From the NCBI GenBank assembly GCA_001312645.1, contig BBEG01000020.1, positions 1-33,523 of the forward strand: a stretch of DNA of 33,523 nucleotides, in the 5' to 3' direction. The position numbers and the translations under genes are program-made. The notes beneath the pieces are model-generated. The model saw only the letters and a list, made by a program, of their open reading frames with translations, searched no databases and was not told the DNA's origin. Every line of letters starts with the position of its first letter. Within the stretch, counting starts at the first letter, position 1. This DNA is from Rhodococcus sp. JCM 9791. Its GTDB lineage: Bacteria > Actinomycetota > Actinomycetes > Mycobacteriales > Mycobacteriaceae. This document shows positions 11,263 to 30,627 of the stretch, piece by piece.

Positions 11263-12974
11263 TCAGGAAGCCGAGATCTTCTTGTCTGCGGCGTCGTGAG
11301 CGGCGATGTAGCCGTACACGAGTCCCTGGCCGATCGTTGCACCCGCACCCGGGTAACGGTTTCCGAACGCGTTGGCGGCGGTGTTGCCGATCGCGTACAG
11401 ACCGTCGATGACGGCGCCGTCCTCACTCAGTACCCGGCCACGCTCATCCGCGCGCAGGCCACCGCAAGTGCCGAGATCGCTGAGCGTCATCTTCACCGCG
11501 AAGTACGGGCCATGGTCGAGCGGGCGCAGGTTCGGGTTCGGCTCCACGGTCGGGTCACCGTAGTACCGGTCATATGCGCTTGCACCGCGGGCGAACTCCG
11601 AATCCGTACCGGCCGCGGCGTCATCGTTGAACCGGCGGAACTGGTCGGTGAACGAATCGACGGGCACGCCCATCGATTCCGCGAGTTCGGTTGCCGACGC
11701 ACCGCTGTGCGCGATACCGGCCTTGTACCAGGATCCCGGAATCGGCTGCCGCGGGAACAGTCCCGCCGCGAACATGTAGCTGTTGCGGTACTTCTGGTCG
11801 AACACGATCCACATCGACTCGACCGGGTCACCGGACTTCTCGCGTTCGAGGATCAGCTGACCGAACGACATGTAATCGGACGACTCGTTGGTGAAGCGGC
11901 GCCCGGTCTGGTCGACGATGAACGAACCCGGCAGCGACCGCTCGGCGAGCATCACCAGAGGTGCCTTGCCTGCCTTGGTCGGCGCGACGGCGGGGAACCA
12001 CCAGGCCTGATCCATCAGTCGACGCCCGCACCGATCTCCTGCCCGATCTTGATGGCATCACCGGTGTTGCCTTCGGCTCCGAGGCTTTCACCGTCGGCGA
12101 GCGACTCGGACTGGAACTTGTGGCGCCACTCCATGTCGTGATCGAAACCACCGGCGGCGAGCACGACACCGCGGCGGGCGGTCACGGTCACCTCGCGGCC
12201 GTTCTGCTCGAGAACCGCACCGGTCACCCGGTCGCCGTCCTTGACGAGCCGGACGAGCGACGTCTCCGTCCACACCGGGATGTTCGCGTTCAGCACGCCT
12301 GCGAACAGGCCTGCTGCGATCGCCTGACCACCGGCAGCGTACTCACGCTTGACGGCGAGTCCGGCCACACCCTGCGCGAGGCGACGGAAGATCCGCGAGA
12401 AACCCTTGACGGGAGTCCGCACCATGAGGTTCATCCACTTGTAGTCGGCGCCTGTGGTGGGCATCGGGAGTCCGGCGTCCATCAGACCTGGGCGCAGCCG
12501 GCCACGTTCTTCACCCAGCTGGGAGAGGTTGAACGGACGGCACTCACAGGTGCGGCCGACCGCGGCACCACCGGGGCGCTCCGGGTGGTAGTCCGAGTAG
12601 CCCTTCGCCCAGAAGAACTTCATCGGCGTGGTGCGCTGCAGCATCGCGACGGTCTCGGCACCGTTGTCCACGAACGCGTCACCACGCTCGACGGGCGCGG
12701 TTCCGTCGACCACCGACCGCACGTAAGTACGGCCGCGCTCGACGGTGTCGCCGGTGCGGGCTTCCGTCAGCACGGGGTTCGCGGGCATCCAGAATGCACC
12801 ACCCGACCGTGCCGTGGAGCCGCCCACGTACTTCGTCTTCTCGACGATGAGCGACGAGAGGCCGCGCTCGTTCGCCGCGAGGGCCGCGGCCATGCCCGTG
12901 CCCGCCCCGATCACGAGCAGGTCCACGGTCGTGTCACGGGCGGGGGTAAGGGGCGGTACGGCGCGTTTCGCCAT
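11263..12974 (-). CDS. KstD-type FAD-binding dehydrogenase (one apparent frameshift)
   Basis: Members of this flavoprotein family include 3-ketosteroid delta1-dehydrogenase and related fumarate-reductase-like enzymes. ATG 12974 follows AAGGAGAA. The FAD-binding motif LLVIGAGTGMAAALAA (about residues 19-34) is followed by YVGGSTARSGGAFWMP, GYSDYHPERPGG, VVLAAGGFDHD (about 290) and a C-terminal GNRYPGAGATIG (about 540). The Tyr and the Gly four residues later in YPGAG correspond to the C-terminal catalytic Tyr/Gly pair of KstD. A break near 12018 (GACCTG read as GACTG) splits the frame; one base restores 570 residues. I favour a steroid 1-dehydrogenase-like role because kshA, hsaA- and hsaC-like genes are nearby. 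4-ene dehydrogenation or another enone substrate is possible. Confidence 0.8.
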
Positions 12975-13051
12975 CGAGAGTTCTCCTTGTACCTGAGTGT
13001 CACATGCTGGTAGGAGACGCTAGGCGAGCCACTTCACCGTAGGAACGGGTG

Positions 13052-13121
13052 ATCCCGGCCACCGGGATATCACACGTGGCCGTGGTCTCCGGTGTTCACG
13101 GCGACACCCACGTCACCGTGG
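13052..13121. promoter_or_regulatory. Upstream region of the KstD-like gene with several candidate operator repeats
   Basis: The 213-bp gap between BVMO 1 and the KstD-like gene (12975-13187) has no ORF. It contains ATCCCGG-cca-CCGGGAT (13052-13068), then ATATCACAC (13067-13075) followed by CCGTGG, and ACACCCAC (13104-13111) with CACCGTGG close by. ATATCACAC...CCGTGG and ACACCCAC also occur immediately ahead of the IclR gene. This may be an internal promoter under the same regulator. Confidence 0.4.
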
Positions 13122-13187
13122 CGTGCCTACGCGTCGGGCGCGACCCGCGGTGGCATGTGGCGCCCGAGAAGCTCGGCGAACCGCCGG

Positions 13188-15182
13188 CTAGACAGAATGC
13201 CGTGTGAACTGGAAATGGTCGGGTGATGGCTCGCGCAGCATGGTCCAATAGTCGACCAGGCGCCACGGGCACGGCCCGACCGGGCGGCCCGCGCTGTTTC
13301 GGTAGTAGCCGCTCACCTCGGCACCGGGGTGCGCCCAGACCGTCCGGTCCAGCGCCTCGTCGACCTCACGGTTGTACTCGGCCTGGACCTCCGGATCGAC
13401 ATCCATGGACGCGTAGTCGTGCTCGACGAGGTACTGCAGGCACTCCACGACGTAGTGCACATGTTCTTCGCTTGTGATGTTGTGCCCTGCACCGTGGTTG
13501 GGAGCCGCATTCGGGCCCGCCGTGACGAAGAGGTTGGGAAAGCCGGACACCTGAATCCCGAGGTACGCCCGTGGGTCGTCGCCGTTCTTCCACAGATCGG
13601 CGAGCTTCGTACCGTTCCGTCCGATGATGTCGATGGACGTGGTGAACTCGAGATGGAAACCGGTGGCCAGGATGATGACGTCGGCCTCGATGTACACGCC
13701 CTCCGTTGTCGTGACACCCCCTGCATCGATCCGCGCGGGGGCTGCCCGATGCAGCGTGGCGTTCTCCCGGTTCAGAGTGGCAAAGAATCCCGGGTCCTTG
13801 ACGATGCGCTTGGCGTAGGGCCGGAAGTCGGGCGTCAACTTCTTCCGAAGGTCTGGGCGGTCAGGGAAGGATCGTTCGAGATACTGCAACGCCGTCTGCA
13901 TGACCAGGTCGCTCGCGGGTGAGGCCGAAAGATGGGTAGCGGCCCACTCCGGATCGATTCGCGGAACCGGGTACAGGTTGTCGGACGCGAGCCAGTACGC
14001 GTTGAGCCGGAACCAGTTCTGGAAGAACGGCAGATGCCGCATCGCCCACCGCTCACCTTCGGGAACGTCGTTGACCACAGCTTTCTCCGGCACGATCCAA
14101 TGAGGACTGCGGACGAGCGCATCAAGACTGGCGACCTCGTCGATGATGTTCGGAGCCACCTGCACCGCAGTACATCCCGTGCCGACCACGACGACCCGCT
14201 TGTCCACCAAGTCGAGATCCGAAGCCCACTCCGCCGTGTGCACGATCTGTCCTTCGAAAGTGTCCATACCTTCGATATCGGGAATGTTGGGAGAGTTGAG
14301 CATTCCCAGGGCCGTGACCACGCACTCGCGGTGTACGGAACGACACTGCCGTCCTGCGCCGGTCTCCACGACCCACTTCTGCTCTTCCTCGATCCATTCG
14401 GCGGAGATCACCGAGGTCGAGAACTCGATGTTCCGGTACAGGTCGTACTTCTCGGCTACACCCTGCATGTAGGTGAGATATTCGGGTCCCGTCGGGTAGT
14501 AACGCGTCCAGTCGGGATTGAGTTCGAAGGAATACGAGTAGTAGTGACTCGGGGTATCTACCGCCGCACCGGGATACGTATTGCGCGACCACGTCCCTCC
14601 CAGCTCATCCCGCTCCTCGAACACCGTGTAGCGAAAACCCGCCTCTCCCAGCTTGATCGCCGCGTTGAGCCCGACCATGCCCGCACCGATCACGATCACG
14701 TCGAAATCCGGCGCGGGTGTTCTCGTCACCGGAATTCGCCGTTGTGCCTTTTGGAACCCTGCCTGCTCGAGCAGAAGCGGCACGAATTCGTCGTCCACTG
14801 TGCCGACGGTGCACAACGAGGCCATCCGGCGGAACAACTCGGGTTCGGGCAGGTCCAATTGCACAGACAATTCGGACGTGAGCACCTCCGCTGCCCGCTC
14901 ACGGATGGCGGCGGCGACATCGGCGGGGAACTGGCCGGGTGGAGTTGCTACGGCGCCGCTCTGCGCACCGTAGTGTGTCTGCGTCGCAGTCCCGCCCCCA
15001 GCCTGTGCACTTTTGGCCTGTGCAACCTGTTCCTCGAACTCGTCGAGCAACGTCAGGTCGCCGGAGACATGCACCATGGACATCAACAGTGCACCCGGAT
15101 CCGCAACGGCGATAGCCGACCGAAGAGCCTCGGGGGTGATCGAGTCTCGGGCGGGTCCACTCGGGGTGAATGTGGAGGTCAT
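13188..15182 (-). CDS. Baeyer-Villiger monooxygenase 1, HAPMO-like with N-terminal extension
   Basis: 664 residues from ATG 15182, behind GGAAGGAAATCC. BVMOs use NADPH, FAD and O2 to insert oxygen next to a ketone, giving an ester or lactone. Residues 1-165 form an extra N-terminal domain, as in 4-hydroxyacetophenone monooxygenase. VIVIGAGMVGLNAAIKL starts the FAD Rossmann fold and GTWSRNTYPGAAVDTPSHYY follows. The fingerprint FEGQIVHTAEW is present, but followed by Ala instead of the usual Pro/Asp. VVVVGTGCTAVQV is the NADPH motif. The gene is intact and lies between the SDR at 15327 and the KstD-like gene. It shares long identical stretches with BVMO 2 (23574). The substrate could be an aryl ketone or a steroid ketone. 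Confidence 0.88.
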   Translation of the reverse strand: MTSTFTPSGPARDSITPEALRSAIAVADPGALLMSMVHVSGDLTLLDEFEEQVAQAKSAQAGGGTATQTHYGAQSGAVATPPGQFPADVAAAIRERAAEVLTSELSVQLDLPEPELFRRMASLCTVGTVDDEFVPLLLEQAGFQKAQRRIPVTRTPAPDFDVIVIGAGMVGLNAAIKLGEAGFRYTVFEERDELGGTWSRNTYPGAAVDTPSHYYSYSFELNPDWTRYYPTGPEYLTYMQGVAEKYDLYRNIEFSTSVISAEWIEEEQKWVVETGAGRQCRSVHRECVVTALGMLNSPNIPDIEGMDTFEGQIVHTAEWASDLDLVDKRVVVVGTGCTAVQVAPNIIDEVASLDALVRSPHWIVPEKAVVNDVPEGERWAMRHLPFFQNWFRLNAYWLASDNLYPVPRIDPEWAATHLSASPASDLVMQTALQYLERSFPDRPDLRKKLTPDFRPYAKRIVKDPGFFATLNRENATLHRAAPARIDAGGVTTTEGVYIEADVIILATGFHLEFTTSIDIIGRNGTKLADLWKNGDDPRAYLGIQVSGFPNLFVTAGPNAAPNHGAGHNITSEEHVHYVVECLQYLVEHDYASMDVDPEVQAEYNREVDEALDRTVWAHPGAEVSGYYRNSAGRPVGPCPWRLVDYWTMLREPSPDHFQFTRHSV

Positions 15183-15326
15183 GGATTTCCTTCCGGTCGG
15201 GATCGAGATCGTGCTGTAGCGCCCCCGGCCTGCGGCCCAGGCATTGCACACTCTTCTGAGCCAATCGCATTGACGTCCAAGGGAACAGCCCACCGCCCGT
15301 TCAGCGGTCAGCCGATATCGAACGGT

Positions 15327-16199
15327 TCACACCGGAGTGGACACGCCCATTCTGTTCAGCATCACACGAGGGTCCGCCGGCGGTGCCAGCTCGAGCAGTT
15401 GCCGGCCGCGGGTAGCCGCCATCTGTGTGCACACTTCGTCGTTGGAGAACACCCAGAAGTCGCCGCGTGCGACGGCTTCGGTCATGTGTTCGGCAGCAAC
15501 GACGGGGTCGAGACCCGATTCGACGTTGGCACGTTGCATTGCGGCAAAGACCGCATTGGCAGTCTCGTTCTGGGTGGGTGCATCCCGTTCGGCAGCCAGG
15601 AAGATCTGACTGCGAATGGAATGCGGAAGGACGGCCGACACCTGAATCGGTGCGTTCACCAGGGACAATTCTTGATGCAGACACTCCGTCAACGCCAGCA
15701 CAGCATGCTTGCTGACGATGTAGGGAGCTTGGACCGCCACACTGTTGAGACCACCGACCGACGACAGATTCGCAATGCACGCAGGTGTACCGGTCTCGAT
15801 CATCCGCGGTACGAACGACCGAAGACAGTGGAAGACCCCGTCGACGTTGATGTCCATGACCTTGCGCCACCGGTCGATGCTCACCTCCCACAACAGACCT
15901 GCATTCTCGACACCCGCGTTGTTCACCAGGAGTTCGACGCTGCTGTACCGGTCGAAGACATACCGGGCCATCTCATCCACCGCATCGGCGTCGGTGACGT
16001 CGATCCGATACGCTTCGGCGGCTCCCCCTTCCCGGATGACCGCGTCGGCGACCTCGACCGCTTTCTGCTCGTCGATATCGGCCACTACGACCGCCATACC
16101 GAGTACGGCCAGGTGGCGTACGAAGCCCTCTCCGATCCCTGCTGCTCCGCCGGTCACCAATGCGGTTCCGGTGGAAAACCTCTGCTGCGCTGTGGACAT
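15327..16199 (-). CDS. Short-chain dehydrogenase/reductase 1
   Basis: 290 residues from ATG 16199, preceded by GAGGAGAG. An alternative ATG at 16223 overlaps the esterase stop as ATGA but has no ribosome binding site. TALVTGGAAGIGEG is the NAD(P)-binding glycine motif, VVVADIDEQ suggests NAD preference through the acidic residue at the end of beta 2, LLVNNAGVENAG follows, and the active site is Ser in NLSSVGG with YIVSK. These classical SDRs interconvert secondary alcohols and ketones. Lying between an esterase and a BVMO, it could oxidise the alcohol released by ester hydrolysis; this is inference. Confidence 0.82.
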   Translation of the reverse strand: MSTAQQRFSTGTALVTGGAAGIGEGFVRHLAVLGMAVVVADIDEQKAVEVADAVIREGGAAEAYRIDVTDADAVDEMARYVFDRYSSVELLVNNAGVENAGLLWEVSIDRWRKVMDINVDGVFHCLRSFVPRMIETGTPACIANLSSVGGLNSVAVQAPYIVSKHAVLALTECLHQELSLVNAPIQVSAVLPHSIRSQIFLAAERDAPTQNETANAVFAAMQRANVESGLDPVVAAEHMTEAVARGDFWVFSNDEVCTQMAATRGRQLLELAPPADPRVMLNRMGVSTPV

Positions 16200-16219
16200 G
16201 TCTTTCTCTCCTCTTCGAC

Positions 16220-17156
16220 TCATCGGCGATCCGCGGCAGGGTCGGATGCCGGAATACGGTTCAAGTACGCGACGAGGTGTTCGAACAGCTGCCGTGCCGG
16301 TGGCAGGGCAGTGGTCATCGTCGCGAAGCCGTGCATCATGCCGTCGTAGCGGCGCAGTTCCACCTCGACACCGGAAGCCTGCAGTTTCCGCGCGTATTCC
16401 TCGGTGCCGTCTCGCGTGGGGTCGATCTCGGCGGTGACGACGAACGCCGGGGGCAGTCCGCTCAGATCGGCCGCAGCAGCCGGGTTGACGTACGGTGAGT
16501 CGCGCTGGGCAGAATCGGCACGTGCAGATCCCAGAACCGGTGACAGTCGGCAGGTGACAGGAGAACGGTCTCGAATTCGGGATTGGTGACCTGCATCGTC
16601 GCGGTGCCGTACATGCTGATCTGCGCGGCCGGCACAAGCAGGCCCCTGTCCCGACACTGTTGGGCGAGTGCGAAAGTCAGGGTGCCGCCCGCGCTTTCCC
16701 CTGCCAGGACCGCGCGACGGACGTCCGCCGACGCAAGGGCATCGGGGACCGTCATCATCCACTCCCATACCGCGCGGCAGTCGTCGAGCGCCGCGGGATA
16801 TCGATGTTCCGGCGCCAATCGGTAGTCGACGGAGACGACGATGACGCCGGCAGCGTTGCTGAGCCTGCGGAGGTACTCCTCGTTCTGGTCGAGACTCCGA
16901 CGGCGAACCCCCCGCTGTGCATCCACTGCACCACCGGTAGACCTTCGTCGTCGGAGGGTCGGTAGATCCGTATCGGTACCCCGCCGGCAGCGGACGGCAC
17001 GAGGAGGTCTTCACTGTGGTGGATCGGCGTGGTCGCCGGGATCGCGCCGGCTGCCAGCACTGCGCGCAACTCCGGCACAGGTATCTCGTACATCGGTCTG
17101 CCCATGCGCCGAGCCGACGCGTCGACGATCTGCTGGGCCTCCGGCGAAAGTGGCAT
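16220..17156 (-). CDS. Esterase of the hormone-sensitive-lipase family (two apparent frameshifts)
   Basis: An alpha/beta-hydrolase that cleaves carboxylic esters. ATG 17156 begins MPLSPEAQQIVDASARRMGR. The oxyanion-hole motif is MHSGGF (about residue 80; HGGG in most relatives), followed by SVDYRLAPEHRYPAALDD. The nucleophile is the Ser of AGESAGG, and the acid and base are Asp in EIDPTRD (about 246) and His in GMMHGF (about 276). Frame breaks near 16898 and 16517 each look like one lost base; repaired length is 312 residues. It precedes SDR 1 and BVMO 1 on the same strand. A BVMO next to an esterase is the known two-step way of removing an acyl side chain (ketone to ester to alcohol), so an ester made by the BVMOs is the likely substrate. 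Confidence 0.8.
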
Positions 17157-17230
17157 CTTCGGTCGTCCATTTCATGGCGGGACCGGGACGCGTGAAACGC
17201 CCCGGTCGGATGGATCGATGCTGAACTCGG

Positions 17231-17710
17231 TCAGGCCACGGTTGCAGTATGACCCGGGTGGTCGGCGAAGCGGACGGACTCCTGTGTGTCCAGCACGACT
17301 TCAACACTGCTGAACGCGAGACGTCCGTCCACGGCACGGACAGTGCCGCGAACGATACCGCTCGAGACGTTGTGGGGCTTTCCGTCGACGATCTTGGTGA
17401 CGAAGAGGTACGACGTGAACGATGCCTCCTCGTTCCGGTTCTCGGTGAGGAAAACGTTCGTCCCGTTGTGTCGCAACGGATACGGACTGTTTCGGCGGTG
17501 GTCGTCCTTCCACGCCATCACTGCGTCGGCACCGCGTAGGTCGACTCGAATGAAGTCCTCGTAGTCCGTGGCTCCGGTGTCGCTGGCACATCGGAACGCG
17601 ATGTCGTCGGTCATCAGTGCGCGCAGCGAATCGGTATCCCATTCGTCGTAGTGGTACCACCACGCCCCGACAAGTGCTGCGACATCTCCCGCCGCGAGTG
17701 AAATCTGCAT
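17231..17710 (-). CDS. NTF2/SnoaL-like protein 2
   Basis: 159 residues from ATG 17710, behind AGGAGAG. The pattern is that of a ring-hydroxylating-dioxygenase-beta or SnoaL_4-type NTF2 fold: an N-terminal helix pair (VAALVGAWWYHYDEWD), LRALMTDDIAFRC, then alternating strands (NVFLTENRNEEASFTSYLFV, GIVRGTVRAVDGRLAFSSVE). No catalytic residue can be assigned with confidence. It lies between the esterase and NTF2-like protein 3 and is presumably co-transcribed with them. Possible roles are isomerisation or hydration of a catabolic intermediate, or a structural subunit. Confidence 0.75.
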   Translation of the reverse strand: MQISLAAGDVAALVGAWWYHYDEWDTDSLRALMTDDIAFRCASDTGATDYEDFIRVDLRGADAVMAWKDDHRRNSPYPLRHNGTNVFLTENRNEEASFTSYLFVTKIVDGKPHNVSSGIVRGTVRAVDGRLAFSSVEVVLDTQESVRFADHPGHTATVA

Positions 17711-17759: not shown

Positions 17760-18272
17760 TCACTTGGTGTAATCGAAGAATCCAGGCGTCTGGTCCACTC
17801 GCAAGCGAGTCAGGTTGCGGTACGCGATCAACCACCGACCGTCGACCTTGCGATATTTCTCGTGGTAGTGGCCGTACCCGTGCAAATGTTCCTCGCCGGA
17901 CCCGTGGGACCACCAGAGCATGTCCTCCATGGCCCACACGCCGGTCGCGGTGGTGTCCGACGTCAAAGTGATCTCGGGAGTGTGTCCGTGATGAACGCTG
18001 GTCACCGAGACCGCTCCGTCGAGGACTCGCACGATCGCCTTCGTCAGCGCCTCCTGCCCGACGACAGACCCTGGGCGCTGTGACGCATCGTCACCGGCTC
18101 TGGCGCCGAATGTGTCGCTCACGACGTCCTCGGTATGCACGCTGCCGTACAGGTCCCATTGCTTGGTGTCCATGATCCGCAGCCGGGCGGCGAACACCTT
18201 CTCGATCTCGTGGATCGCGAGGGCACGCTCTGCGGCGGCGAGTGTGATCTCCTGCGTTGTCGTGTCGGTCAT
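17760..18272 (-). CDS. NTF2/SnoaL-like protein 3
   Basis: 170 residues from ATG 18272 (MTDTTTQEITLAAAERALAI). The ribosome binding site is poor: AGG directly abuts the ATG, so the start is uncertain. IHEIEKVFAARLRIMDTKQWDLYGSVHTEDVVSD is the usual SnoaL_4 opening, and YHEKYRKVDGRWLIAYRNLTRLRVD the closing strands. Several His residues (SVHHGHTPE, EEHLHGYGHYHEKY) cluster near the predicted cavity. Function is unknown within the family; its position is 50 bp upstream of NTF2-like protein 2. Confidence 0.78.
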   Translation of the reverse strand: MTDTTTQEITLAAAERALAIHEIEKVFAARLRIMDTKQWDLYGSVHTEDVVSDTFGARAGDDASQRPGSVVGQEALTKAIVRVLDGAVSVTSVHHGHTPEITLTSDTTATGVWAMEDMLWWSHGSGEEHLHGYGHYHEKYRKVDGRWLIAYRNLTRLRVDQTPGFFDYTK

Positions 18273-18357: not shown

Positions 18358-19244
18358 CTACAGTCCGGACGGCGCGATGTTGGGATTAGCCCACGACGGG
18401 GGCTCGAGAGGCGGCAGCGTCTCGCGCCCGTCGAGGCTCTTGACTTCCAGCTTCTCGTGCCACGGAAAGTGCAGACTGAACGCCACATGCCCAGTGCGCT
18501 CCTCGGCCGGCAGTGTGCACATGGCCAGTACCGTCTCGACGAGGTACTCGACCGGTTCCGTGTCGTAACCCTCGGGCAGCAACGCGGCTGCTCCCGGCGT
18601 CATGATGGCGGTGGAAGGCCCGACCACGTTGACAGCAATGTTGTCGTCGACCACCTCTGCCGCCAAACCCTGGGTGAAGCGGTGCAGCGCCGCCTTGGCC
18701 GACGCGTAGATCACGTCACCCGAAGTCTTGTTGTAGTCACGGAAGGGCCGGATCGGGCTCAAGCCCGTCGAGGAGCCGATATTGACGATCCAGCCGCCTC
18801 CCCGCTTACGCATATGCGGAATCGCCGCTTGCGACAACAGGAACGGAACACGAAGATAGTGCGCCATCGTGCGATCGAACGTCGCAGGCTCATCTTCTCG
18901 ATCGACGCGTAGTCTGCGAAACCGGCGTTGTTGACGAGAATGTCGATGCCTCCGGCCTCCTCGACCACACGGTCGACGAGTGTGTCCAGCGCCTCGGCGT
19001 CCTCCAGATCTGCGGGAATGGTCAGCGCCTTCCCGCCCGCTGCCTCGATCAGCTCGACGGTTTCCTCGAGCGAACCGGGGACCGTCGTGGCTTTCCCCTC
19101 GCGAATGGACACCGAGGGTGCGGTGCCGCGCGCAGTGACCACGACGGTAGCGCCCTCCGATGCCAGGCGCTGCGCGATGGCACGACCGATGCCCCGGCTG
19201 CTGCCGGTCACCAGCGCAGTTCTCCCTGCCAACACTCCACTCAT
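18358..19244 (-). CDS. Short-chain dehydrogenase/reductase 2 (one apparent frameshift)
   Basis: ATG 19244 follows GAGGAAACGC. TALVTGSSRGIGRAIA binds the cofactor, ILVNNAGFADYASIEKM is the central block, and the active site is formed by IGSSTGLSP and YASAKAALHRF. The break near 18885 (CTGGCG read as CTGCG) interrupts KMSLATFDRTMAHYLRVPF; adding one base gives 295 residues. A longer than usual substrate loop (RPFRDYNKTSGDV) separates the catalytic Ser from the Tyr. The C-terminal 40 residues (SLDGRETLPPLEPPSW) extend past the classical SDR core. It is followed 85 bp later by NTF2-like protein 3. It probably oxidises or reduces a cyclic alcohol/ketone in the same pathway. Confidence 0.8.
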
Positions 19245-19920: not shown

Positions 19921-19961
19921 GCGGTATGCTAGGCACCCGTTGCGCACCGCATACGCACGCC

Positions 19962-21753: not shown

Positions 21754-21884
21754 CCGGACGAATCGAACTCGTTCTTCCGCAATTCCGATGAACGAAGCAC
21801 CCGGTGAACGGGATGCATTGGCCCGACTGCTATTCCTGCCGCCTACCGTCCAGGAACGAATACCGTCGTACCGGGAGGAAATCC

Positions 21885-22328: not shown

Positions 22329-22342
22329 CGGTCACGGACAGC

Positions 22343-22424: not shown

Positions 22425-23273
22425 TCAACGACCGAACTTCATGAACCGATAGAGATAGGGCACGATCCGGCGGACCGGGACGGAGCGCGGCCAGTCACCG
22501 GCGCGGAAGTACGCATCGGAACCGCCGTCGACGAAAATCACACTTCCGCAGAGGAAGTCCGCGTTGTCCGACAGCATGAACACCACCCACGCACCGAGTT
22601 TTTCTGCGTCACCGAAACCTCCGACGGGAACCGGGAACGAGCGGACGGCCTTCGCCTCGGAGGGAGTGGCCAGTTGCTTCTCGAGCAGCGGGGTCATGAT
22701 CGCCCCCGGTGCGAGAGCGTTGAGCCGGATGTCGGAACCCGCCCATTCCGGCCGAACAGCAGTGCGACGTACCCACCTGCTGACCGCGATCTTCGAGCCC
22801 GCGTAGATGATCGACGGAGCAACCTTCCCGAACAGACGAACCGACTTCACAGCCCGGTCCGCGTCGCCAGCGAGGAATGCGTTGATCGTGCGACGAGGCA
22901 CAGCCGGCGTTGTCGTGGTCGAGTTGCTGGAGAATACGACGACCTTCGCATCACCCGCTGCTGCGAGCGCATCTCGCCACCCTTCCAGGAGATCGACGAC
23001 GCCGAAATAGTTGACTTCGGCAATCAGCCGCGGACGATCCGGGCCAGGGGTGGGACCGAGGCCGGCCGCGAGCACAGCACCGTCCAGCCGACCGCCCGCC
23101 GACTCGAGAACCGCTCGTACCGCCTGTGTTCTACCCTGAACTGTCGACAGATCGGCGACGACGTCGGCGTCCTCGATATCGACGCCGATGACGGTGTGCC
23201 CGGCTTCCCGGAGTTGCTCCGTCACAGCGCGACCCATACCCGACGCGGACCCCGTTATCACATAAACGCCCAC
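22425..23273 (-). CDS. 3-alpha-hydroxysteroid-dehydrogenase-like SDR
   Basis: 282 residues from GTG 23273, behind AAAGGG; intact. VYVITGSASGMGRAVTEQL is the cofactor loop and IGVDIEDADVVADLST suggests NAD binding. GAVLAAGLGPTPG replaces the usual NNAG block, EVNYFGVVDLLEGW follows, and the active site is VVFSSNS with IIYAGSKIAVSRWVRR. The spacing, AGLGP, NYFG and ADLST-x-x-GR blocks agree with Comamonas-type 3-alpha-HSD/carbonyl reductase as I remember it, including the long insertion before YAGSK. Oxidation of a 3-alpha-hydroxysteroid to the 3-ketone would feed KstD and KshA. It lies 40 bp after the Cys-rich gene and is the last gene of the kshA-side operon. Confidence 0.82.
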   Translation of the reverse strand: MGVYVITGSASGMGRAVTEQLREAGHTVIGVDIEDADVVADLSTVQGRTQAVRAVLESAGGRLDGAVLAAGLGPTPGPDRPRLIAEVNYFGVVDLLEGWRDALAAAGDAKVVVFSSNSTTTTPAVPRRTINAFLAGDADRAVKSVRLFGKVAPSIIYAGSKIAVSRWVRRTAVRPEWAGSDIRLNALAPGAIMTPLLEKQLATPSEAKAVRSFPVPVGGFGDAEKLGAWVVFMLSDNADFLCGSVIFVDGGSDAYFRAGDWPRSVPVRRIVPYLYRFMKFGR

Positions 23274-23313: not shown

Positions 23314-23577
23314 CTATTCGTCAGTGCAGCGCGGCAGATCCGGGCCGGCAGGCAACTCGATACAGGTCTCGCCCAGTTCGTGAGACGCCACCGCACGGTC
23401 GATGGTGCTGCGCAGTGCGGCGCATTCTCGACGATGGTCACCGAGCGACAACTCCTCCGGCATCAACGGACACCACGACGTGTCCGATTCCCATTGGATC
23501 GACGTGTGTGCGGGGCTGAACTTCTCGACGAGGACGCCGATCCCACATTCCTCGCACGTCAGAGGCTGCATCGTCAT
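23314..23577 (-). CDS. Cys-rich 87-residue protein coupled to BVMO 2
   Basis: The ATG at 23577 overlaps the BVMO 2 stop as ATGA. The protein opens MTMQPLTCEECGIGVLVEKF, continues SPAHTSIQWESDTSWCP, and has further Cys at about 53, 73 and 84 (RRECAALR, GETCIEL, PRCTDE). CxxCG followed by a conserved-looking VEKFSPAHTSIQW block suggests a zinc ribbon or small iron-sulphur protein. I recall similar short proteins beside monooxygenases and acyl-CoA dehydrogenases in mycobacteria, without a known function. The tight coupling suggests it acts with the BVMO or KshA, perhaps as a metal-binding or electron-transfer partner. Confidence 0.7.
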   Translation of the reverse strand: MTMQPLTCEECGIGVLVEKFSPAHTSIQWESDTSWCPLMPEELSLGDHRRECAALRSTIDRAVASHELGETCIELPAGPDLPRCTDE

Positions 23578-25574
23578 TTCGAGGCATCTCCGTTTCTCTC
23601 GTCACTCGGTGTGGCCGGGTCGATGAAGTCGAAGTCCTTCGGATTCGGCTCCCGCAGCAGTGTCCAGTAGTCGACCAGACGCCAGGGGCACGGCACGACA
23701 GCACGTCCTTCGCTGTTCCGGTAGTAACCGTTGATCTCGGCGCCGGGATGTACCCATACCGTCTTGTCCAGGGCTTCGTCGACCTTGCGATTGTATTCGT
23801 CGAGCACGTCCTGCCGCACATCCAGTGCGTCGTGCCCGTTCTCCACGAGGTACTGCAGGCATTCGATGATGTAGTGGACGTGCTCTTCGCTCAGAATATT
23901 GTGTCCTGCACCGTGGTTCGGCGCCGAGTTCGGTCCGGCAGTGACGAAGAGATTCGGAAAGCCGGACACCTGGATACCCAGATAGGCACGGGGGTCGTTG
24001 CCGTCGTTCCACTGGCCGGCGAGCGTGCGTCCGTCCCGTCCTGCAATATCGATCGACGTGGTGAACTCGAGCGCAAAACCTGTTGCCAGGATGATGACGT
24101 CGGCGGGTATGAACTCGCCCTCGGTGGTGACAACACCGTCGGGTGTCACCCGCTGAAAGGAGGCCCGGTGCAGGGCCACGTGCTCACGGGTGAGGGCGCG
24201 GAAGAATCCGGGGTCCTTGACGATTCGTTTGCTGTACGGCCTGAAATCCGGTGTCAGCTTCTCCACGAGATCCGGTCGGTCGGCGAAGCTCGACCGGAGA
24301 TGGTTCAGCGCTGTCTCGAGCACCATCTCGTTGGCAGGCGACGCCGAGAAGTGCGTCCGTGCCCATTCAGGATCGATCCGCGGCATAGCGTACAGATTGT
24401 CGGACGCGAACCAGTACGACCGCAACCGGAACCACTCGTGATACCGCGGGATATGAGCGAGCGCCCACTTCTCGCCCTCGGGAACATCGTTCACGACGCT
24501 CTTCTCCGGAACGATCCAGTGCGGCGACCGGACCACGACGTCGAGCGACTTCACCCGATCGACGATGCTGGCCACCACCTGGACGGAGGTGCAACCGGTA
24601 CCGAGCACGACGACCCGTTTGCCGGTCAGATCGAGGTCTTCGTTCCACTCCGCGGTGTGGACGACGGTACCGGCGAACGAGTCCATTCCCTCGACATCCG
24701 GAATATTCGGTGAGTTGAGCATGCCGAGGGCGGTCACCACCGCGCTCGCACGGTGCACCTCTCGAGTCCCGTCGGTGGATTCGACGGTCACCTCCCACAC
24801 GTGTTCGTCGTCGATCCAGTGTGCGGACAGCACCCGGGTGCTCAACGAAATGTTCTCCGCGATCCCGTAGGTGTCGACGACTCCCTTCAAGTACTTCTGA
24901 TACTCCGTACCCGACGGGTAGTACTTCGACCAACCTGGATTCAGCTCGAAGGAGTACGAGTAGTAATGACTCGGTGTATCGACCGCGGCACCCGGATAGG
25001 TGTTGCGGGACCATGTTCCGCCGATCTCGTGGCGCGTCTCGAATACCTTGTAGCGGAACCCTGCGTCCTGCAGCTTGATCGCGGCGTTGATCCCGACGAT
25101 CCCCGCACCGATGATGATGACGGAGAAGTCGGCGGGCGGTGTCGCGGTGACGGGCACCCGGCGTTCGCTGATCACGAATCCTGCCTGTTCGCGCAGGATC
25201 GGCACGAATTCCCCGTCGACGCGCTCGGACGTCGCCACGTGCGCCATGCGGCCGAACAACTCCGGATCGGGAACCCCGAGTCGATCGTCCATTTCTGGAG
25301 TGAGCAGTTCGTGCGCACGTGCCCGGATATCGGCGACCACGTCGTCCGGGTACTGCCCCGGAGGGGTGGTCGGCCGGGTACCGGTTCGGTAGTGGTTGCC
25401 GGGTTCGCCGATCGTCAGGCGCGACCCGAACTCGTCGAGCAATCCGGTGTCGCCTGTGACGTGCACCAGAGACATGAGCAGCGGCGCAGGATCGCAGATG
25501 TCGATCGCTGCGTGCAGTTGTGATTCACGGTCGTCGGCGACTCGGGATCCGACCACCGAAGGTGAGGCGGTCAT
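23574..25574 (-). CDS. Baeyer-Villiger monooxygenase 2, HAPMO-like with N-terminal extension
   Basis: 666 residues from ATG 25574; the BVMO 3 stop is one base away (TGAgATG), so the pair is coupled. The ~160-residue N-terminal domain is followed by VIIIGAGIVGINAAIKLQ and GGTWSRNTYPGAAVDTPSHYY. The fingerprint is FAGTVVHTAEWNEDLD, with Asn in place of the canonical Pro/Asp after Trp. VVVLGTGCTSVQVV is the NADPH motif. It is intact and strongly similar to BVMO 1 throughout (GPNxAPNHGAGHNI, YYRNSEGRAVVPCPWRLVDYW). The two probably diverged after duplication and may act on different ketones of the same pathway. Confidence 0.88.
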   Translation of the reverse strand: MTASPSVVGSRVADDRESQLHAAIDICDPAPLLMSLVHVTGDTGLLDEFGSRLTIGEPGNHYRTGTRPTTPPGQYPDDVVADIRARAHELLTPEMDDRLGVPDPELFGRMAHVATSERVDGEFVPILREQAGFVISERRVPVTATPPADFSVIIIGAGIVGINAAIKLQDAGFRYKVFETRHEIGGTWSRNTYPGAAVDTPSHYYSYSFELNPGWSKYYPSGTEYQKYLKGVVDTYGIAENISLSTRVLSAHWIDDEHVWEVTVESTDGTREVHRASAVVTALGMLNSPNIPDVEGMDSFAGTVVHTAEWNEDLDLTGKRVVVLGTGCTSVQVVASIVDRVKSLDVVVRSPHWIVPEKSVVNDVPEGEKWALAHIPRYHEWFRLRSYWFASDNLYAMPRIDPEWARTHFSASPANEMVLETALNHLRSSFADRPDLVEKLTPDFRPYSKRIVKDPGFFRALTREHVALHRASFQRVTPDGVVTTEGEFIPADVIILATGFALEFTTSIDIAGRDGRTLAGQWNDGNDPRAYLGIQVSGFPNLFVTAGPNSAPNHGAGHNILSEEHVHYIIECLQYLVENGHDALDVRQDVLDEYNRKVDEALDKTVWVHPGAEINGYYRNSEGRAVVPCPWRLVDYWTLLREPNPKDFDFIDPATPSDERNGDASK

Positions 25575-25575
25575 C

Positions 25576-27262
25576 TCAGGCACCCTCGACCCCCACTATG
25601 TCGAACCCCTTGTAGCCGGCTGCGGCGACCTCTGCACAGATGTTGCCGTAGTTCGCGAAGCCCCCGATGTACGGCATGAAGACCCGTGGTTTGCCGGGGA
25701 TGTTTGCGCCCATGTACCAGGAGTTGGCGGACGGGAACAAGGTGCCCGCTGCCTTCTCGTTGCATTCGGCACCCCACTCGTCGACGGCCTGTTCGCCGGC
25801 CTCGATCGAGCGGGCGTTGTGTTCGTCGAGGTGATCGAGACAGTCGGAGATCCAGTCCACCTGCTGTTCCGCCATCAGCACCATGTTCGCCAGCACGCTC
25901 GGGCTGCCCGCACCGACCATGAAGAACATGTTCGGAAAACCGTGGGACGCTAGTCCCAGGTATGTGCGTGGTCCCGCGGCCCACTCCTCGCGCAGGGTTC
26001 GGCCATTGCGCCCACGGATGTCGATCCGCGACAAGGCGCCGGTCATCGCGTCGAAGCCGGTGGCGAAGATGAGCATGTCGAGCGGGTAGTGACTGTCGCT
26101 GGTACGGACACCGTCTGCGGTGATCTCCGCGATCGGTGTCCTGCGAAGGTTCACCAGCGCCACGTTGTCCCGGTTGAACGCCTCGAAATAGCCGTCGTCC
26201 GTGACGATCCGCTTCGTCCCGATGGGGTGGTCGGTGGGAATCAGCTGGTCCGCGATCTTTGGATCGTTCACCATGTCGCGGATCTTCGATTCGACGTACT
26301 CGCGTGCGCTGTCGTTCGCCTCGATGCTTGCGGTCTGGTCCGGAAAAGCCTTGGCGAACAGGTAGCCACCGCGCTGCCACCATTCGTCGTACACCCGGCG
26401 GCGCTCCGCCTCGTCGACCTCCATCGCCCCCTTCGGTACGGGGTGAACGGGGTGCCGCCACCGCTCAGTCGCGCGAGACGTCGCCGCTCCGGGTACGTCG
26501 CCTTCACCTCGGCGATCTGCTCGTCGCTCAGCGGGCGATTCCCCGCGGGGATCGAATAGTTGGGGCTGCGCTGGAAGACGACGACCTGCTCGGCTTCCTG
26601 TGCAATCACCGGAATCGACTGGATACCCGACGATCCCGTTCCGATGACGCCGACGCGCTTGCCTGCGAAGTCGACGGGATCGTGCGGCCATTCGCCTGTG
26701 TGATACGACTCGCCGGTGAACGAATCACGCCCGGGATGTCGGGGCGATTCGTCGCCGACAACACGCCGGTGGCCATGATGCAGAACCTCGCGGTCACCGA
26801 TCTCCCGGTGTCCGTCGTGACCGTCCAGAGTCCGGAATCCTCGTCGTACACGGTGGAGACGACGCGGGTGAGGAATTCGAAGGCGCTGCGCAGGTCGTGC
26901 CGATCTGCCACATGCTCGAGGTACGCCAGGATTTCCTCTTGGGTCGCGAACCGCTCCGACCACGTCCACTCCTGCTGAAGGTCTTCGTCGAACGAGTACG
27001 AGTAGTCGATGCTCTCGACGTCACAGCGCGCACCCGGGTAGCGGTTGTGGAACCACGTACCACCGACTCCTGCCGCAGATTCGAAGCCGTGCACACTCAT
27101 TCCGCGTGCGCGAAGCTTGTACACCGCGTACAGACCGGAGATGCCGGCACCGATCACGACCGCATCGACATCACGTGTGTGCGTGTCCACGGTGTTCACA
27201 TCCTTGTCGGGGCGGGCCCCCGGTCCCGAATCGGTCGGCCCTGAATCTGTCGGCGGAGTCAT
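25576..27262 (-). CDS. Baeyer-Villiger monooxygenase 3, steroid/phenylacetone-monooxygenase-like (two apparent frameshifts)
   Basis: ATG 27262 overlaps the dioxygenase stop (ATGA). The first 30 residues are a Pro/Ser/Asp-rich leader. The FAD motif VVIGAGISGLYAVYKL, WFHNRYPGARCDVESIDYSY, the canonical fingerprint FTGESYHTGEWPHD and the NADPH motif VGVIGTGSSGIQSIP follow. The C-terminal half (FATGFDAMTGAL, SANSWYMGANIPGKPRVFMP) closely resembles R. rhodochrous steroid monooxygenase as I remember it, which turns progesterone into testosterone acetate. Breaks near 26731 and 26443 (CCCCC read as CCCC) split it; two added bases give 562 residues. Unlike BVMOs 1 and 2 it lacks the long N-terminal domain. 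Confidence 0.87.
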
Positions 27263-28170
27263 GCTGTTGCGTCCTTCATCTGCTTGGCCCACAACCATTC
27301 GTGGCCCCAATAGCTGTCCGCGGTGATCTCTTCCGCCGTGTAGTACGTCTCGTCGACGAGCTTTCCCTCGGTGCCGTATTCGATGTCCCAGCCGCCCGGG
27401 ACTCCGACGTAGAACGAGACCATCTTGTCGTTGGTGTGCCGGCCCAGTGTCGAGGACACCGGAAAGTCCCGCGCCTGAACCTGGTCGAGTGCCCTGCCCA
27501 CTGCGTCGAGGGAGTCGACCTCCACCATGACGTGGATCAACCCGGGACCACGATCCTCGGGGCTCGGCATGATCGCAAGGCTGTGATGACGCTGGTTGAC
27601 GCCGAGGAATCGGATTCGCAAGGGATCCACATCGGGGGGCGTCGGCAGCCTGAATGCACCGCGCGGGAGAAACTCCAGTACTTCGGTGTAGAAGCGGAAC
27701 GACTCGTCGAATGCGCTGGTCGGCATGACCACATGTCCGAGTCCTTGTGCCCCGGTCACGAACTTCTGTCCGTAGCGCGTGACGACGGGGCTGTGGTCGA
27801 GTGCGGGGCCGAAGAAGAACTCGAGCGGCGTGCCGCCGGGGTCCGTCATCGTGAGCCCGCCCTCGACTCTGCGCCGCTCGCACATCTCGAACGGCATGGG
27901 TGCGTAGTCGCATCCCGCAGAATCGAGGCGATCGGCAAGTGCTCGCAACGCAGTACCGTCGCGGACCTCCCAGCCGACCGCGGTGACACGGTCGGTGTCG
28001 CCGGGCTCGACGGTGATACGGGCCAGGCGCTCGTCCATGCGGAAGTGCAGTGCGTCGTCCTCCGGCCCGGAGCCGGGGGCGAACCCGAGCACCTCGAATC
28101 CGAGCTCACGCCAGCGCGTCATGTCCGTCGCCTGGACTCGAACGTATCCGAGGCTCTTGATCTCAGTCAC
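27259..28170 (-). CDS. hsaC: Extradiol ring-cleavage dioxygenase, HsaC/BphC type
   Basis: 303 residues from GTG 28170, behind AAAGGAACACT; intact. This is a two-domain vicinal-oxygen-chelate dioxygenase. The N-terminal domain opens SLGYVRVQATDMTRWRELG. The catalytic domain carries the Fe(II) ligands: His in GLGHVVM, His in LIHVMVEV and Glu in WDIEYG. The second-shell pair HHSLAI is also present. HsaC cleaves 3,4-dihydroxy-9,10-seconandrost-1,3,5(10)-triene-9,17-dione in steroid degradation, and BphC cleaves dihydroxybiphenyl. Position between an HsaA-like hydroxylase and a steroid-type BVMO favours HsaC. The downstream BVMO overlaps its stop by four bases. Confidence 0.82.
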   Translation of the reverse strand: MTEIKSLGYVRVQATDMTRWRELGFEVLGFAPGSGPEDDALHFRMDERLARITVEPGDTDRVTAVGWEVRDGTALRALADRLDSAGCDYAPMPFEMCERRRVEGGLTMTDPGGTPLEFFFGPALDHSPVVTRYGQKFVTGAQGLGHVVMPTSAFDESFRFYTEVLEFLPRGAFRLPTPPDVDPLRIRFLGVNQRHHSLAIMPSPEDRGPGLIHVMVEVDSLDAVGRALDQVQARDFPVSSTLGRHTNDKMVSFYVGVPGGWDIEYGTEGKLVDETYYTAEEITADSYWGHEWLWAKQMKDATA

Positions 28171-28199
28171 AGTGTTCCTTTCGAAGCAGCCGGAAAGCG

Positions 28200-29381
28200 T
28201 CAGATCATCACGTGCAGAGGACCGTTCGGGACATCTACCCGAGCGAGGCCATGGCGGACGCGTGATACGGCGTGCTGCTCACGTGGATCGCGTGGTGCAG
28301 GCCGGCGTGTGCGTCGCGCCAGAACCGCTGCAGCGGGTTGTCGACGCGAAGGGCGTTGCCGCCGGATCGGTCGAAGATGTCGTCCGCGGCACGCACTGCC
28401 CGCCATGCGGAGCGCACCTGATTGCGTCGCGATGTGGCGCGGGTTTCGAAGTCGACCTCCTTGCCTGCGTCGACGAGGTCCCAGATGCGGTCGACGTTGG
28501 CGAGCAGCTGCTGGCGGGCCGCATCGATTTCCGATGCCGCTTCACCAAGTGCGTGCAGCACATACGGGTCGTCCTTGATGGCGGTGCCTGCAGCGCCGAC
28601 CCTGCTGCGCTGGTACTCGATGCCGGCGGCAAGCACACCTTCGCAGATGCCGATGGTCGCGGAAGTGATGCCGAGCGGGAACATCGTCGACCACGCATCC
28701 GGTAGAGGGTCTCCGTGACGCCGTAAACTTTCGCCGCGGTGCCGTCGATTACATCCTGGCCTTTCATCACCCGGTAGTCCGGGATGAAGGCATCCTTGAC
28801 GACGATGTCCTTGCTCCCCGTACACGCAGACCGACGACGTCCCACGAGTCCTCGATGATCTCGTAGTCGGCACGCGGGAGGATCACGTGGAGCCCGACGG
28901 GCGGCATGAGCGGCCTGCCGTCCTCGCCTCCGACCATCGCTCCGAGGAAGATCCAGTCGCAATGATCGGTTCCGGACGAGAACTGCCACCTTCCCGACAT
29001 CCGGTATCCGCCGTCGACGGGAACGGCGACACCGCCCGGCATGTACGGCGATGCCTGCCAGGTATCGGTGTCCGAGCCGAGCACCTCGTCCTGCACCTTG
29101 GGGTCCGCGAACGCCAGCTGCCATGGATGCACGCCGACGATTCCGCCGACCCATCCCGCGGATCCGTAGATGCTCGCGGTCTTCATGATGGTTTCGGCGA
29201 ACTCGCGGGGGTGCGCCTCGTAGCCGTCGTACTTCTTACGCTGCAGCAATCGGATGATGCCGGTATTGCGGAGGTTCTTGGCCATGTCGTCGGTCAGTCG
29301 GCCGAGCGAGTCGGATTCCTCGGATCCCGCTCGGAGGTCGTCGGCGATCGCAACAATTCGGTCGAGCACTTCGTAACTCAT
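28200..29381 (-). CDS. hsaA: Flavin-dependent hydroxylase, HsaA-like (three apparent frameshifts)
   Basis: This belongs to the acyl-CoA-dehydrogenase fold of two-component monooxygenases; HsaA hydroxylates the phenolic A ring of 3-HSA using reduced flavin from HsaB. ATG 29381 follows AGGAGAATTCC. IYGSAGWVGGIVGVHPWQLAF, SGRWQFSSGTDHCDWIFLG, WDVVGLRGTGSKDIVV, RMPWSTMFPL and RFWRDAHAGLHHAIHV are all characteristic. Breaks near 28823, 28694 and 28240 each fit one lost base. The third shows a false stop at 28235; the frame after it continues VDVPNGPLHVMI to a stop at 28200. Repaired length is 394, exactly that of the Mycobacterium enzyme as I recall it. No reductase gene (hsaB) is in the window. 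Confidence 0.8.
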
Positions 29382-29475
29382 GGAATTCTCCTGGGAAAGG
29401 TCGAATGGGGGTCGCGCCGCGCGTCGGGTCGCGGTCCGTATTGCTCGGCGAACGACTCGTGAGCAGTGGTCAGTG

Positions 29476-30627
29476 CTACGCGAAGGCGCTGCGTCCGGCA
29501 GCGAGGTTCTCGTCCACTTCCGCCTGCCAGCTCGTCAGTGCCCGCTCGGTGTCGAGCTCGTACTCGAACCGGTTGATCATCTCCGGCCGGATGTCTTCGA
29601 CGTCCACGTAGAACTGCTCGTACCAGCGACGAAGCTGGTATACGGGGCCGTCTTCTTCGCAGAGCAGCGGGTTGTCGATCCGGGATTTGTTCTTCCAGAT
29701 CTCCACGTCCTGTTCGAACCCGATCGCGACGCCGTCGGCGACGGCCCGAGCAATCTGGTCGGCCTGCTCTCCGGGGGCTCCCTCCGGCTTCTCCACGATC
29801 ACGCCGTATTGGAGCCGGAACGACGTCGGCGTGATCGGGTAGTGGCAGTTGATCAGGTAGATGTTCGGCGCTGCGTCGGGGTCGCTGCCACCGCTCCACA
29901 GCTTGTCGATCATGTATGACGGTCCGTAATACGACGCGTCCGAACGACTTTCCACGCTGTAGTTCGTGGACGTACTCACGCCGACGGCGTCGGCTCGTGG
30001 CCGCGACCTCATCACCTGCGTCGCGGTGTGGCCCTCGAAGACATTGCGGAAGTAGGTCGGCATTCCGTAATGCACGTAGAAGAAGTGCGCCATGTCGACG
30101 ACGTTGTCCACGATCTCACGACAATTCGATCCGGTGACGTCGACAGAGTTCCACACCCAGTCGGTCCAGCCGGAATCGCCGTAGGTGGGGATCTCGGGAA
30201 TCGCGAGTTCCGCGGGCGGCTTGCCGCCCTGAGGGTCGTGCCAGACGAAGAGCTGGCCGCTCACTTCCGCCACCTGCCACGCCCGGGTCCTGGCAATCGG
30301 CGGCACCCGGCGTGCATAGGGAATCGCGGCACATTTTCCGTCACCGCGCCAACGCCAGTCATGGAACGGGCACGCTATGGCGTTGCCCTTGACTGTCCCC
30401 TGCGCCAGATTTCCGCCCATGTGCCGGCAGTATGCGTCGAGAACGTTGATTCGCCCGTCCTCCCCTGCGAACACGACGAGAGCGGTACCGAATGCATCGA
30501 CCTGGTGCGGCTTTCCGTCGGCGAAATCGCGTATCAGTCCGAGGCAATGCCAACCGCGGGCGTAGCGTTCCGGCGGTGTGCCGGTGTCGATGACGCGAAC
30601 CTGATCGTCGGTGTCGGTAGAACTCAC
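29476..30627 (-). CDS. kshA: Rieske oxygenase, 3-ketosteroid 9-alpha-hydroxylase oxygenase subunit (KshA)
   Basis: 383 residues from GTG 30627, behind AGGAGGCATC; intact. KshA with the reductase KshB hydroxylates C9 of 3-ketosteroids, which with KstD opens ring B. The Rieske cluster is CRHMGGNLAQG with CPFHDWRW (CxH...CxxH, about residues 67-92). The mononuclear iron site is in REIVDNVVDMAHFFYVHY, with the distal acid in GFEQDVEIW. ERYARGWHCLGLIRDFADG, KCAAIPYARRVP and EEDGPVYQLRRWYEQFYVD are signature KshA segments. It is the promoter-proximal gene of the minus-strand operon and divergent from iclR. KshB must be encoded elsewhere. Confidence 0.9.
   Translation of the reverse strand: MSSTDTDDQVRVIDTGTPPERYARGWHCLGLIRDFADGKPHQVDAFGTALVVFAGEDGRINVLDAYCRHMGGNLAQGTVKGNAIACPFHDWRWRGDGKCAAIPYARRVPPIARTRAWQVAEVSGQLFVWHDPQGGKPPAELAIPEIPTYGDSGWTDWVWNSVDVTGSNCREIVDNVVDMAHFFYVHYGMPTYFRNVFEGHTATQVMRSRPRADAVGVSTSTNYSVESRSDASYYGPSYMIDKLWSGGSDPDAAPNIYLINCHYPITPTSFRLQYGVIVEKPEGAPGEQADQIARAVADGVAIGFEQDVEIWKNKSRIDNPLLCEEDGPVYQLRRWYEQFYVDVEDIRPEMINRFEYELDTERALTSWQAEVDENLAAGRSAFA

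Follow-up and report, generated by a model that had tools for sequence, protein, structure and literature searches.

The window analysed here, a stretch of 33,523 nucleotides from Rhodococcus sp. JCM 9791, corresponds to positions 1–33523 of one contig (BBEG01000020.1; C20) of a 6.34-Mb draft genome that comprises 947 contigs and is 76% complete. Pfam and profile scans, together with comparison with relatives, revealed a steroid-type gene set that spans 11.3–33.0 kb of the window, mostly on the minus strand. Read from 33.0 kb towards 11.3 kb, it starts with genes for a short-chain dehydrogenase/reductase (SDR), a glyoxalase-like protein, a divergent IclR regulator, the oxygenase KshA, an HsaA-like and an HsaC-like enzyme, the Baeyer-Villiger monooxygenases (BVMOs) BVMO3 and BVMO2, a small protein and a 3α-hydroxysteroid dehydrogenase (3α-HSD)-type SDR. 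After a plus-strand F420 reductase/MFS pair, it continues with a SnoaL-like protein, SDR b, two more SnoaL-like proteins, an HSL-type esterase, SDR a, BVMO1 and KstD. The initial annotation had listed kshA, hsaA-like, hsaC-like, KstD and 3α-HSD genes, three BVMOs, an HSL esterase and further SDRs. Domain and homology scans recovered all of them, including the further SDRs at 15336–16241, 18361–19244 and 32133–32966; several of the genes turned out to be split by indels, however, the set runs past position 30627 (IclR, glyoxalase-like and SDR genes, to 32966), and three SnoaL-like proteins had gone unmentioned. By BVMO2, the closest named relatives are Rhodococcus sp. HM1, R. coprophilus NBRC 100603 and Rhodococcus sp. 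CH91 (84–88% identity).

All genes described below lie on the minus strand unless stated otherwise. The KshA protein (3-ketosteroid 9α-hydroxylase oxygenase; 29476–30627) carries Rieske and iron-binding motifs and scores 286 bits with KshA_C and 562 bits with the solved structure 4qdc. It is followed by the HsaA-like flavin-dependent monooxygenase (28235–29381), which is split near 28694–28824 and is 85–91% identical in two pieces to its counterpart in genome G012, and by the HsaC-like extradiol dioxygenase (27259–28170; 84% to the G012 protein). Profile scans of both G012 proteins found solved relatives. At the other end of the set, the gene for KstD (3-ketosteroid Δ1-dehydrogenase; 11266–12983) is split near 12022 into two FAD_binding_2 halves with 82–89% identity to KstD of HM1, R. 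coprophilus, G004, CH91 and G012. Although the window copy is frameshifted, the intact G012 orthologue scores 1058.6 bits against a cut-off of 793 for the 3-ketosteroid Δ1-dehydrogenase model NF009479.

The rhodococci compared contain up to five sets of KshA–HsaA–HsaC (classes I–V), plus some extra KshA copies. By sequence, class I is of the cholesterol type, class IV is linked to the steroid monooxygenase (STMO) of R. rhodochrous, class V is the window type and class II is without an assigned role. Class III is probably the cholate set, as its spacing resembles that of ro05802, ro05803 and ro05811, which are cholate genes of R. jostii RHA1 listed in a table of PMC4810484, and as its KshA in G017 is identical to the solved chain 4qdf_B over 368 positions. 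BVMO3 (25579–27199), which is of the STMO type, is indel-split in the window, where its pieces are 85–88% identical to HM1. The G012 orthologue (L042:8192–9958) has the type I BVMO fingerprints, and its best solved match is STMO (4aos; 753 bits, versus 611 for phenylacetone monooxygenase). The connection to STMO drawn in the initial annotation thus has a measure, with 62% identity of this orthologue to a near-identical STMO gene product. This product is the class IV BVMO of G004, which differs from STMO at 11 of 529 aligned positions (98% identical; counted by eye). A KshA gene whose product shares all but 5 of 376 positions with 4qdc lies 2 kb from it, and HsaA and HsaC genes then follow. In a genus set of 18 genomes (the window's own and 17 others), class IV BVMO, KshA, HsaA and HsaC were found on one contig within ∼22 kb in seven of the 17; G003 has a similar KshA–HsaA–HsaC trio with no BVMO match at E 1e-200. 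We take 4qdc to be KshA5 and 4qdf_B to be KshA1. R. rhodochrous KshA5 accepts both progesterone and androstenedione as substrates; KshA1 favours steroids with a carboxylated side chain (PMC6153880). STMO converts progesterone to testosterone acetate (PMC12239570). By gene content, the gene of this progesterone-converting enzyme sits near ring A/B genes, and the window holds a parallel cluster.

The initial annotation had suggested a search for kshA with at least two BVMOs in other Rhodococcus genomes, and such synteny does exist. KshA, HsaA, HsaC, BVMO3 and BVMO2 genes form one 7.0–7.1 kb block of identical order in 5 of the 17 other genomes, G012 included. Relative to the window proteins used as queries, KshA is 87–90% and BVMO2 85–88% identical; relative to the G012 queries, HsaA is 88–90%, HsaC 83–86% and BVMO3 84–89% identical. 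The other 12 genomes yielded no orthologue of this core (best matches: KshA 64%, HsaA 67%, HsaC 64%, BVMO3 65%; BVMO2, none at E 1e-200). The fixed order and spacing in five genomes, with none of the five orthologues in the remaining 12 at the thresholds used, argue for linkage beyond chance; as the counts come from related species, they are not independent observations, and no P value is attached. On pLRE138 of R. erythropolis R138, the order is KshA–HsaA–HsaC–BVMO3–HSL–SDRb–SDRa–BVMO2, with several genes overlapping or a few bases apart, and Nocardia aobensis has the same order. A stretch of N. farcinica reads HsaC–BVMO3–HSL–HsaD type–KstD. In six loci (R138, RHA1, N. aobensis, N. farcinica, G026 and G027), the HSL esterase gene directly follows BVMO3, the gap between aligned parts or annotated ends being ≤115 bp. 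In the window, HM1, R. coprophilus, CH91, G004 and G012, the locus contains an esterase-type gene that does not adjoin BVMO3 (in G012, it is on a second contig). The co-occurrence of three BVMOs, which had been singled out at first, is seen in the window, in G012 (over two contigs) and on RHA1 plasmid pRHL1, but it is not the rule: eight loci have two (HM1, R. coprophilus, CH91, G004, R138, N. aobensis, G027 and G026), and the N. farcinica stretch has one.

Phylogenetic trees cover KshA and HsaC. In the KshA tree, class V forms one clade (10 of the 35 rows) with a Shimodaira-Hasegawa-like approximate likelihood ratio test (SH-aLRT) support of 100, and in the HsaC tree it forms one clade with a support of 99, or 95 when outgroups were added; the window proteins fall inside. 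Both lie outside the class IV rows, indicating a cluster parallel to the STMO-type locus rather than a member of it. Class IV HsaC required two changes in the first tree; in the outgroup tree, for which two previously unclassed rows were labelled IV, it required one (support 74). These trees do not resolve how classes III, IV and V branch from one another. Clustering with non-steroid enzymes, which would have spoken against a steroid pathway, was not seen: both proteins fall in a clade of their own within the KshA and HsaC of steroid clusters. Seven of eight other extradiol dioxygenases lay outside the steroid HsaC group and the eighth (L100, on a long branch) at its base, and keeping the 35 steroid-cluster HsaC rows together was not rejected (approximately unbiased test, P = 0.341). 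These clades, a KstD above its equivalog cut-off, a BVMO3 nearest to STMO and the presence of a 3α-HSD make it highly improbable that the locus serves a non-steroid polycycle or an aryl ketone with borrowed ring-cleavage genes, even though the G012 HsaC orthologue scores equally with a biphenyl-diol dioxygenase model (323.9 versus 322.0) and the layout of the N-terminally extended BVMO1 and BVMO2 presumably resembles that of 4-hydroxyacetophenone monooxygenase. When NCBIfam cut-offs were applied to one representative per class (G004 for classes I–IV, RHA1 for class V; L052, L064, L065, L066 and L050), the class I HsaA and HsaC alone passed. For class II and class IV HsaC, it is the biphenyl-diol dioxygenase model that is passed, which could lead to misannotation.

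Overall, we read the gene set as probably, if with some reserve, a dedicated catabolic cluster for C21 20-ketosteroids (progesterone, pregnanolone or corticosteroid-like compounds). This reading is favoured because STMO is the best solved match of the BVMO3 orthologue, STMO-type linkage recurs in 7/17 and the core in 5/17 genomes, the esterase gene follows BVMO3 in six loci, and KshA and HsaC form their own clades. Gene identities and content, conserved linkage and synteny, and the relation of BVMO3 to a proven progesterone enzyme are directly supported by the sequence; from them we infer the substrate, the order of steps, the substrate of the esterase and what BVMO1, BVMO2 and the SnoaL-like proteins do. 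In the proposed pathway, the 3α-HSD, where present, would oxidize the 3-hydroxyl and KstD would introduce the 1(2) double bond. BVMO3 would insert oxygen between C17 and C20 to give a 17-acetate ester, from which the HSL-type esterase would release acetate, freeing a 17-hydroxyl that an SDR could oxidize to the 17-ketone. KshA, working with a KshB reductase that is presumably encoded at another site, would 9α-hydroxylate the steroid so that ring B opens; the HsaA-like enzyme would then hydroxylate and the HsaC-like enzyme cleave ring A, leading into the 9,10-seco pathway, with HsaD and later steps supplied from elsewhere in the genome. The esterase (16229–17165, indel-split) is an α/β-hydrolase with an Abhydrolase_3 domain and a GxSxG motif, and its intact orthologue (L043:7466–8446) scores 203 bits with Abhydrolase_3; its place directly after BVMO3 in related loci lends support to the idea, already put forward in the initial annotation, that it opens the BVMO product. 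As the hydrolase for testosterone acetate in Caenibius tardaugens is unknown (PMC12239570), the window esterase is also a useful candidate for such an enzyme.

Several observations weigh against this reading. BVMOs are promiscuous, and the identity of BVMO3 to STMO is no more than 62%. With scores of 386 and 322, the G012 HsaA and HsaC orthologues stay below the NCBIfam equivalog cut-off of 450, which is why we call these enzymes HsaA-like and HsaC-like, and class IV is not one clade in the KshA tree (two changes). No HsaD match was found in the window; HsaD-type matches occur on six contigs elsewhere in the genome, and an HsaD-type gene lies inside the G012, RHA1 and N. farcinica loci. BVMO2, KshA and HsaA were not seen in 24 kb of N. 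farcinica, nor was a KstD of the window type in the 45 kb of R138 examined. The 3α-HSD-type SDR (22425–23273), whose top solved matches are the 3α-HSDs 2dkn (186 bits) and 1fjh (151 bits), is 80–83% identical in G004, CH91 and G012 and 74% in G027, but a search at E 1e-10 did not find it in the stretches of R138, RHA1 and N. aobensis or in any class IV stretch; on account of the former three, we regard it as accessory. Together, the data support the catabolism of a ketone-bearing steroid, as originally proposed, and point to a real, conserved steroid cluster, for which we specify 20-ketosteroids as the substrates with moderate confidence.

BVMO1 (13188–15293; 81% to its G012 orthologue) and BVMO2 (23574–25583; orthologues at 84–88%) are 65% identical to each other and each about 31–36% identical to BVMO3 and STMO. 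Both are type I BVMOs by Pfam (FMO-like and Pyr_redox in BVMO1), have both of the type I fingerprints searched for, and carry ∼140–190 extra N-terminal residues before the first Rossmann motif. A weak AlphaFold model of BVMO2 (predicted local distance difference test, pLDDT, 58.7) returned the BVMO fold in a PDB search; its N-terminal ∼135 residues are helical and gave no identification in that search. A KshA model was uninformative (pLDDT 31). In Nonomuraea and Streptomyces (L012, L014), a BVMO2-type gene (59%) is accompanied by SDR, HSL and IclR homologues, and neither BVMO3 nor KshA is matched within 22 kb, so that the BVMO2 and BVMO3 modules are separable. Homologues at 38–42% identity also occur on Novosphingobium pNL2 and a Sphingobium plasmid. 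We considered whether the 643-aa pNL2 homologue, SARO_RS19385, is Saro_3708, the progesterone BVMO of the pdc cluster, and dropped this idea, as SARO_RS19410 (494 aa) is the better fit to the order and distance of the genes and to the pdc length of 4.6 kb. BVMO1 and BVMO2 could act on the 20-ketone, the 17-ketone or another ketone.

Tentatively, BVMO2 and its paralogue BVMO1 might act on the 17-ketone to yield a ring-D lactone of the testololactone type that a hydrolase opens, a branch additional to side-chain removal. The joint retention of two BVMOs as dissimilar as 31–36% in all five core-bearing genus members and in R138, RHA1, N. aobensis and G027 is consistent with this possibility, and two successive Baeyer-Villiger steps are postulated in fungi (PMC12239570). 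However, no bacterial precedent was found in the literature considered, the product would depart from the known ring C/D route, and neither the N. farcinica stretch, in which BVMO2 was not seen, nor the Nonomuraea and Streptomyces loci fit such a branch. A two-stage pathway, in which the STMO-type enzyme removes C20–21 as acetate and the N-terminally extended BVMOs then turn the 17-ketone into a lactone and so open ring D, would be an unlikely function for the RHA1 pRHL1 cluster; the steroid rings would then be opened from both ends.

Sphingobium plasmids of strains named Tom* carry full-length BVMO2-type homologues (41–43%), and the TomTYG74 copy lies near a steroid Δ-isomerase and two oxygenases that are 32–33% identical to KshA. 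Steroidal glycoalkaloids are degraded by Sphingobium from tomato roots (PMC10653915), and from their names we assume that the Tom* strains are of this kind. These plasmids could indicate that the substrate is a plant C21–27 steroid (a saponin or alkaloid aglycone, or a cardenolide) degraded via a 20-ketopregnane. We consider this improbable, as no glycosidase domain was detected among the open reading frames (ORFs) scanned, and as the main text of PMC10653915 does not contain the word 'monooxygenase', so that the link to BVMOs is our own.

Three SnoaL-like proteins are encoded at 17231–17710 (SnoaL_4; 74% to a G004 protein), 17760–18251 (SnoaL_4) and 19390–19947 (SnoaL_2; 85–89% to CH91 and G012 proteins). 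The second shows weak likeness to the bile acid 7α-dehydratase BaiE (4l8o; E 1.4e-13, 54 bits) and might eliminate a hydroxyl group, as would be fitting for a hydroxylated steroid substrate. With the 3α-HSD, this protein could point to a second cholate-like set for a bile-acid-type substrate with a 3α-hydroxyl and 7- or 12-hydroxyls, as could the finding that the ring A/B genes of pRHL1, of unknown function, are most similar to the cholate pathway (PMC4810484), which also counts against a 20-ketosteroid cluster. We nevertheless hold a bile acid to be quite an unlikely substrate. A separate class III set already has the KshA–HsaA–HsaC spacing of the RHA1 cholate genes and, in G017, the KshA identical to 4qdf_B, to which the window KshA is about 60% identical. 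Furthermore, the ORFs scanned across 11.3–33.0 kb showed no CoA-ligase domain (an AMP-ligase gene at 6.6–8.0 kb is not part of this range), and BVMO3 and the esterase would be without an evident role on a C5 carboxylate side chain.

Small indels split the KstD, BVMO3, HsaA, esterase and IclR genes and one SDR gene in the window. Flanking genes are split likewise, namely clpB (near 1147 and 2195), a flavohaemoprotein gene (3846) and the AMP-ligase gene (7010–7517); the breaks fall within 457–8032 and 11266–31619. Of 21 frame junctions relative to proteins of relatives, 15 have a net shift of −1; 15 junctions are supported by proteins of two to six relatives and six by one. As these flanking genes are broken alike, relatives are intact and two further kshA copies of the same genome (C44, C64) are also split, the breaks are probably consensus or assembly errors of the draft genome. 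Homopolymers cannot account for all of them, as eight junctions lack any stretch of four identical bases within 40 bp. Gene decay is considered less likely on the same grounds.

The remaining genes of the set are conserved to varying degrees. SDR a (15336–16241, adh_short) is 63–69% identical to relatives, and SDR b (18361–19244, split near 18885 into adh_short halves) 77–83% across 18361–18891. The SDR at 32133–32966 is conserved with the cluster (82–95% in relatives), and the neighbouring glyoxalase-like protein (31741–32136) is 65–74% identical to three relatives, with a Glyoxalase domain in its orthologue (L041:6443–6844). The divergent IclR-family regulator (30773–31619, plus strand, indel-split; IclR_C) is 69–80% identical to relatives in pieces. 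A conserved protein of ∼86 residues (23314–23577) is 63% identical to a G012 copy that is without a Pfam match and is itself 52–60% identical to four other copies; the gene is found with the cluster in G012, G027, RHA1, R138 and N. aobensis. Between the 3α-HSD and BVMO2 genes, G012 has TetR and Oxidored_FMN genes (G004 and CH91 likewise by size and place), and the window lacks both. The plus-strand pair of an MFS transporter and an F420H2-quinone reductase (20438–22328), between a SnoaL gene and the 3α-HSD gene, had no ORF match in the eight relative loci compared. An IS605-type transposase gene (OrfB; 9047–10729) adjoins the kstD end, and transposase-annotated DNA that is 77% identical occurs on two Rhodococcus plasmids; a megablast search against plasmids gave short matches only.

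Complete oxic pathways for the mineralization of progesterone, which is among the most ubiquitous hormone pollutants, remain unknown (PMC12239570, 2025). In the openly available literature, a scope that excludes subscription papers such as the original STMO gene paper, we found no tie of this cluster to C21 steroids or BVMOs and no report of STMO near kshA–hsaA–hsaC, and PMC8228715, PMC6678751, PMC6498646, PMC5962712 and PMC7807495 add nothing further on the cluster. Our analysis places the classic STMO gene near ring-degradation genes and proposes a concrete substrate class for a cluster of several Rhodococcus and Nocardia that is partly plasmid-borne, which would also give a job to the pRHL1 genes.

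On pRHL1 of RHA1, KshA (76%), BVMO2 (75%), BVMO1 (46–70% by segment) and SDR u (82%) are shared with the window proteins, and HsaA (80%), HsaC (71%), BVMO3 (80%), KstD (69%) and IclR (65%) with the G012 proteins, in addition to esterases and SDRs. As it is the sole place matched on pRHL1, we take this KshA to be ro09003, which is listed as kshA4 (PMC4064121). In contrast to the window, the pRHL1 set is dispersed over ∼44 kb of a linear plasmid, with KshA–HsaA–HsaC 27 kb from BVMO3–BVMO2; it has HsaD-type and Oxidored_FMN genes, and no 3α-HSD was found there. The RHA1 BVMO1 homologue (L050 5148–7200) reads in three segments, which may reflect a broken gene or a sequence error. The class IV STMO locus likewise has an STMO-type BVMO near KshA, HsaA, HsaC and IclR, but its proteins are 61–67% identical, no 3α-HSD was found, and the G004 version (L052 1642–11264) adds two luciferase-like monooxygenase genes and genes for a flavin reductase, Hsp70 and DnaJ that adjoin the STMO near-copy. 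In Rhodococcus, the cholesterol clusters (class I) and the clusters that are probably for cholate (class III) use KshA, HsaA and HsaC homologues for ring A/B opening, as the window would; the G012 class V HsaC is 42–44% identical to class I and 59–61% to class III, and the window KshA about 58–63% to both. Finally, in the pdc cluster of C. tardaugens, the Baeyer-Villiger chemistry on the 20-ketone that we propose for the window has been demonstrated, and a luciferase-like monooxygenase too yields testosterone acetate there (PMC12239570). That cluster comprises a BVMO, a luciferase-like monooxygenase, TetR and LuxR (PMC12239570), a composition unlike that of the window, where none of the 30 ORFs scanned has a domain of the luciferase-like, TetR or LuxR type. 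A 494-aa BVMO on pNL2, probably the pdc-type one, has 29–32% identity to each of BVMO1, BVMO2, BVMO3 and STMO.

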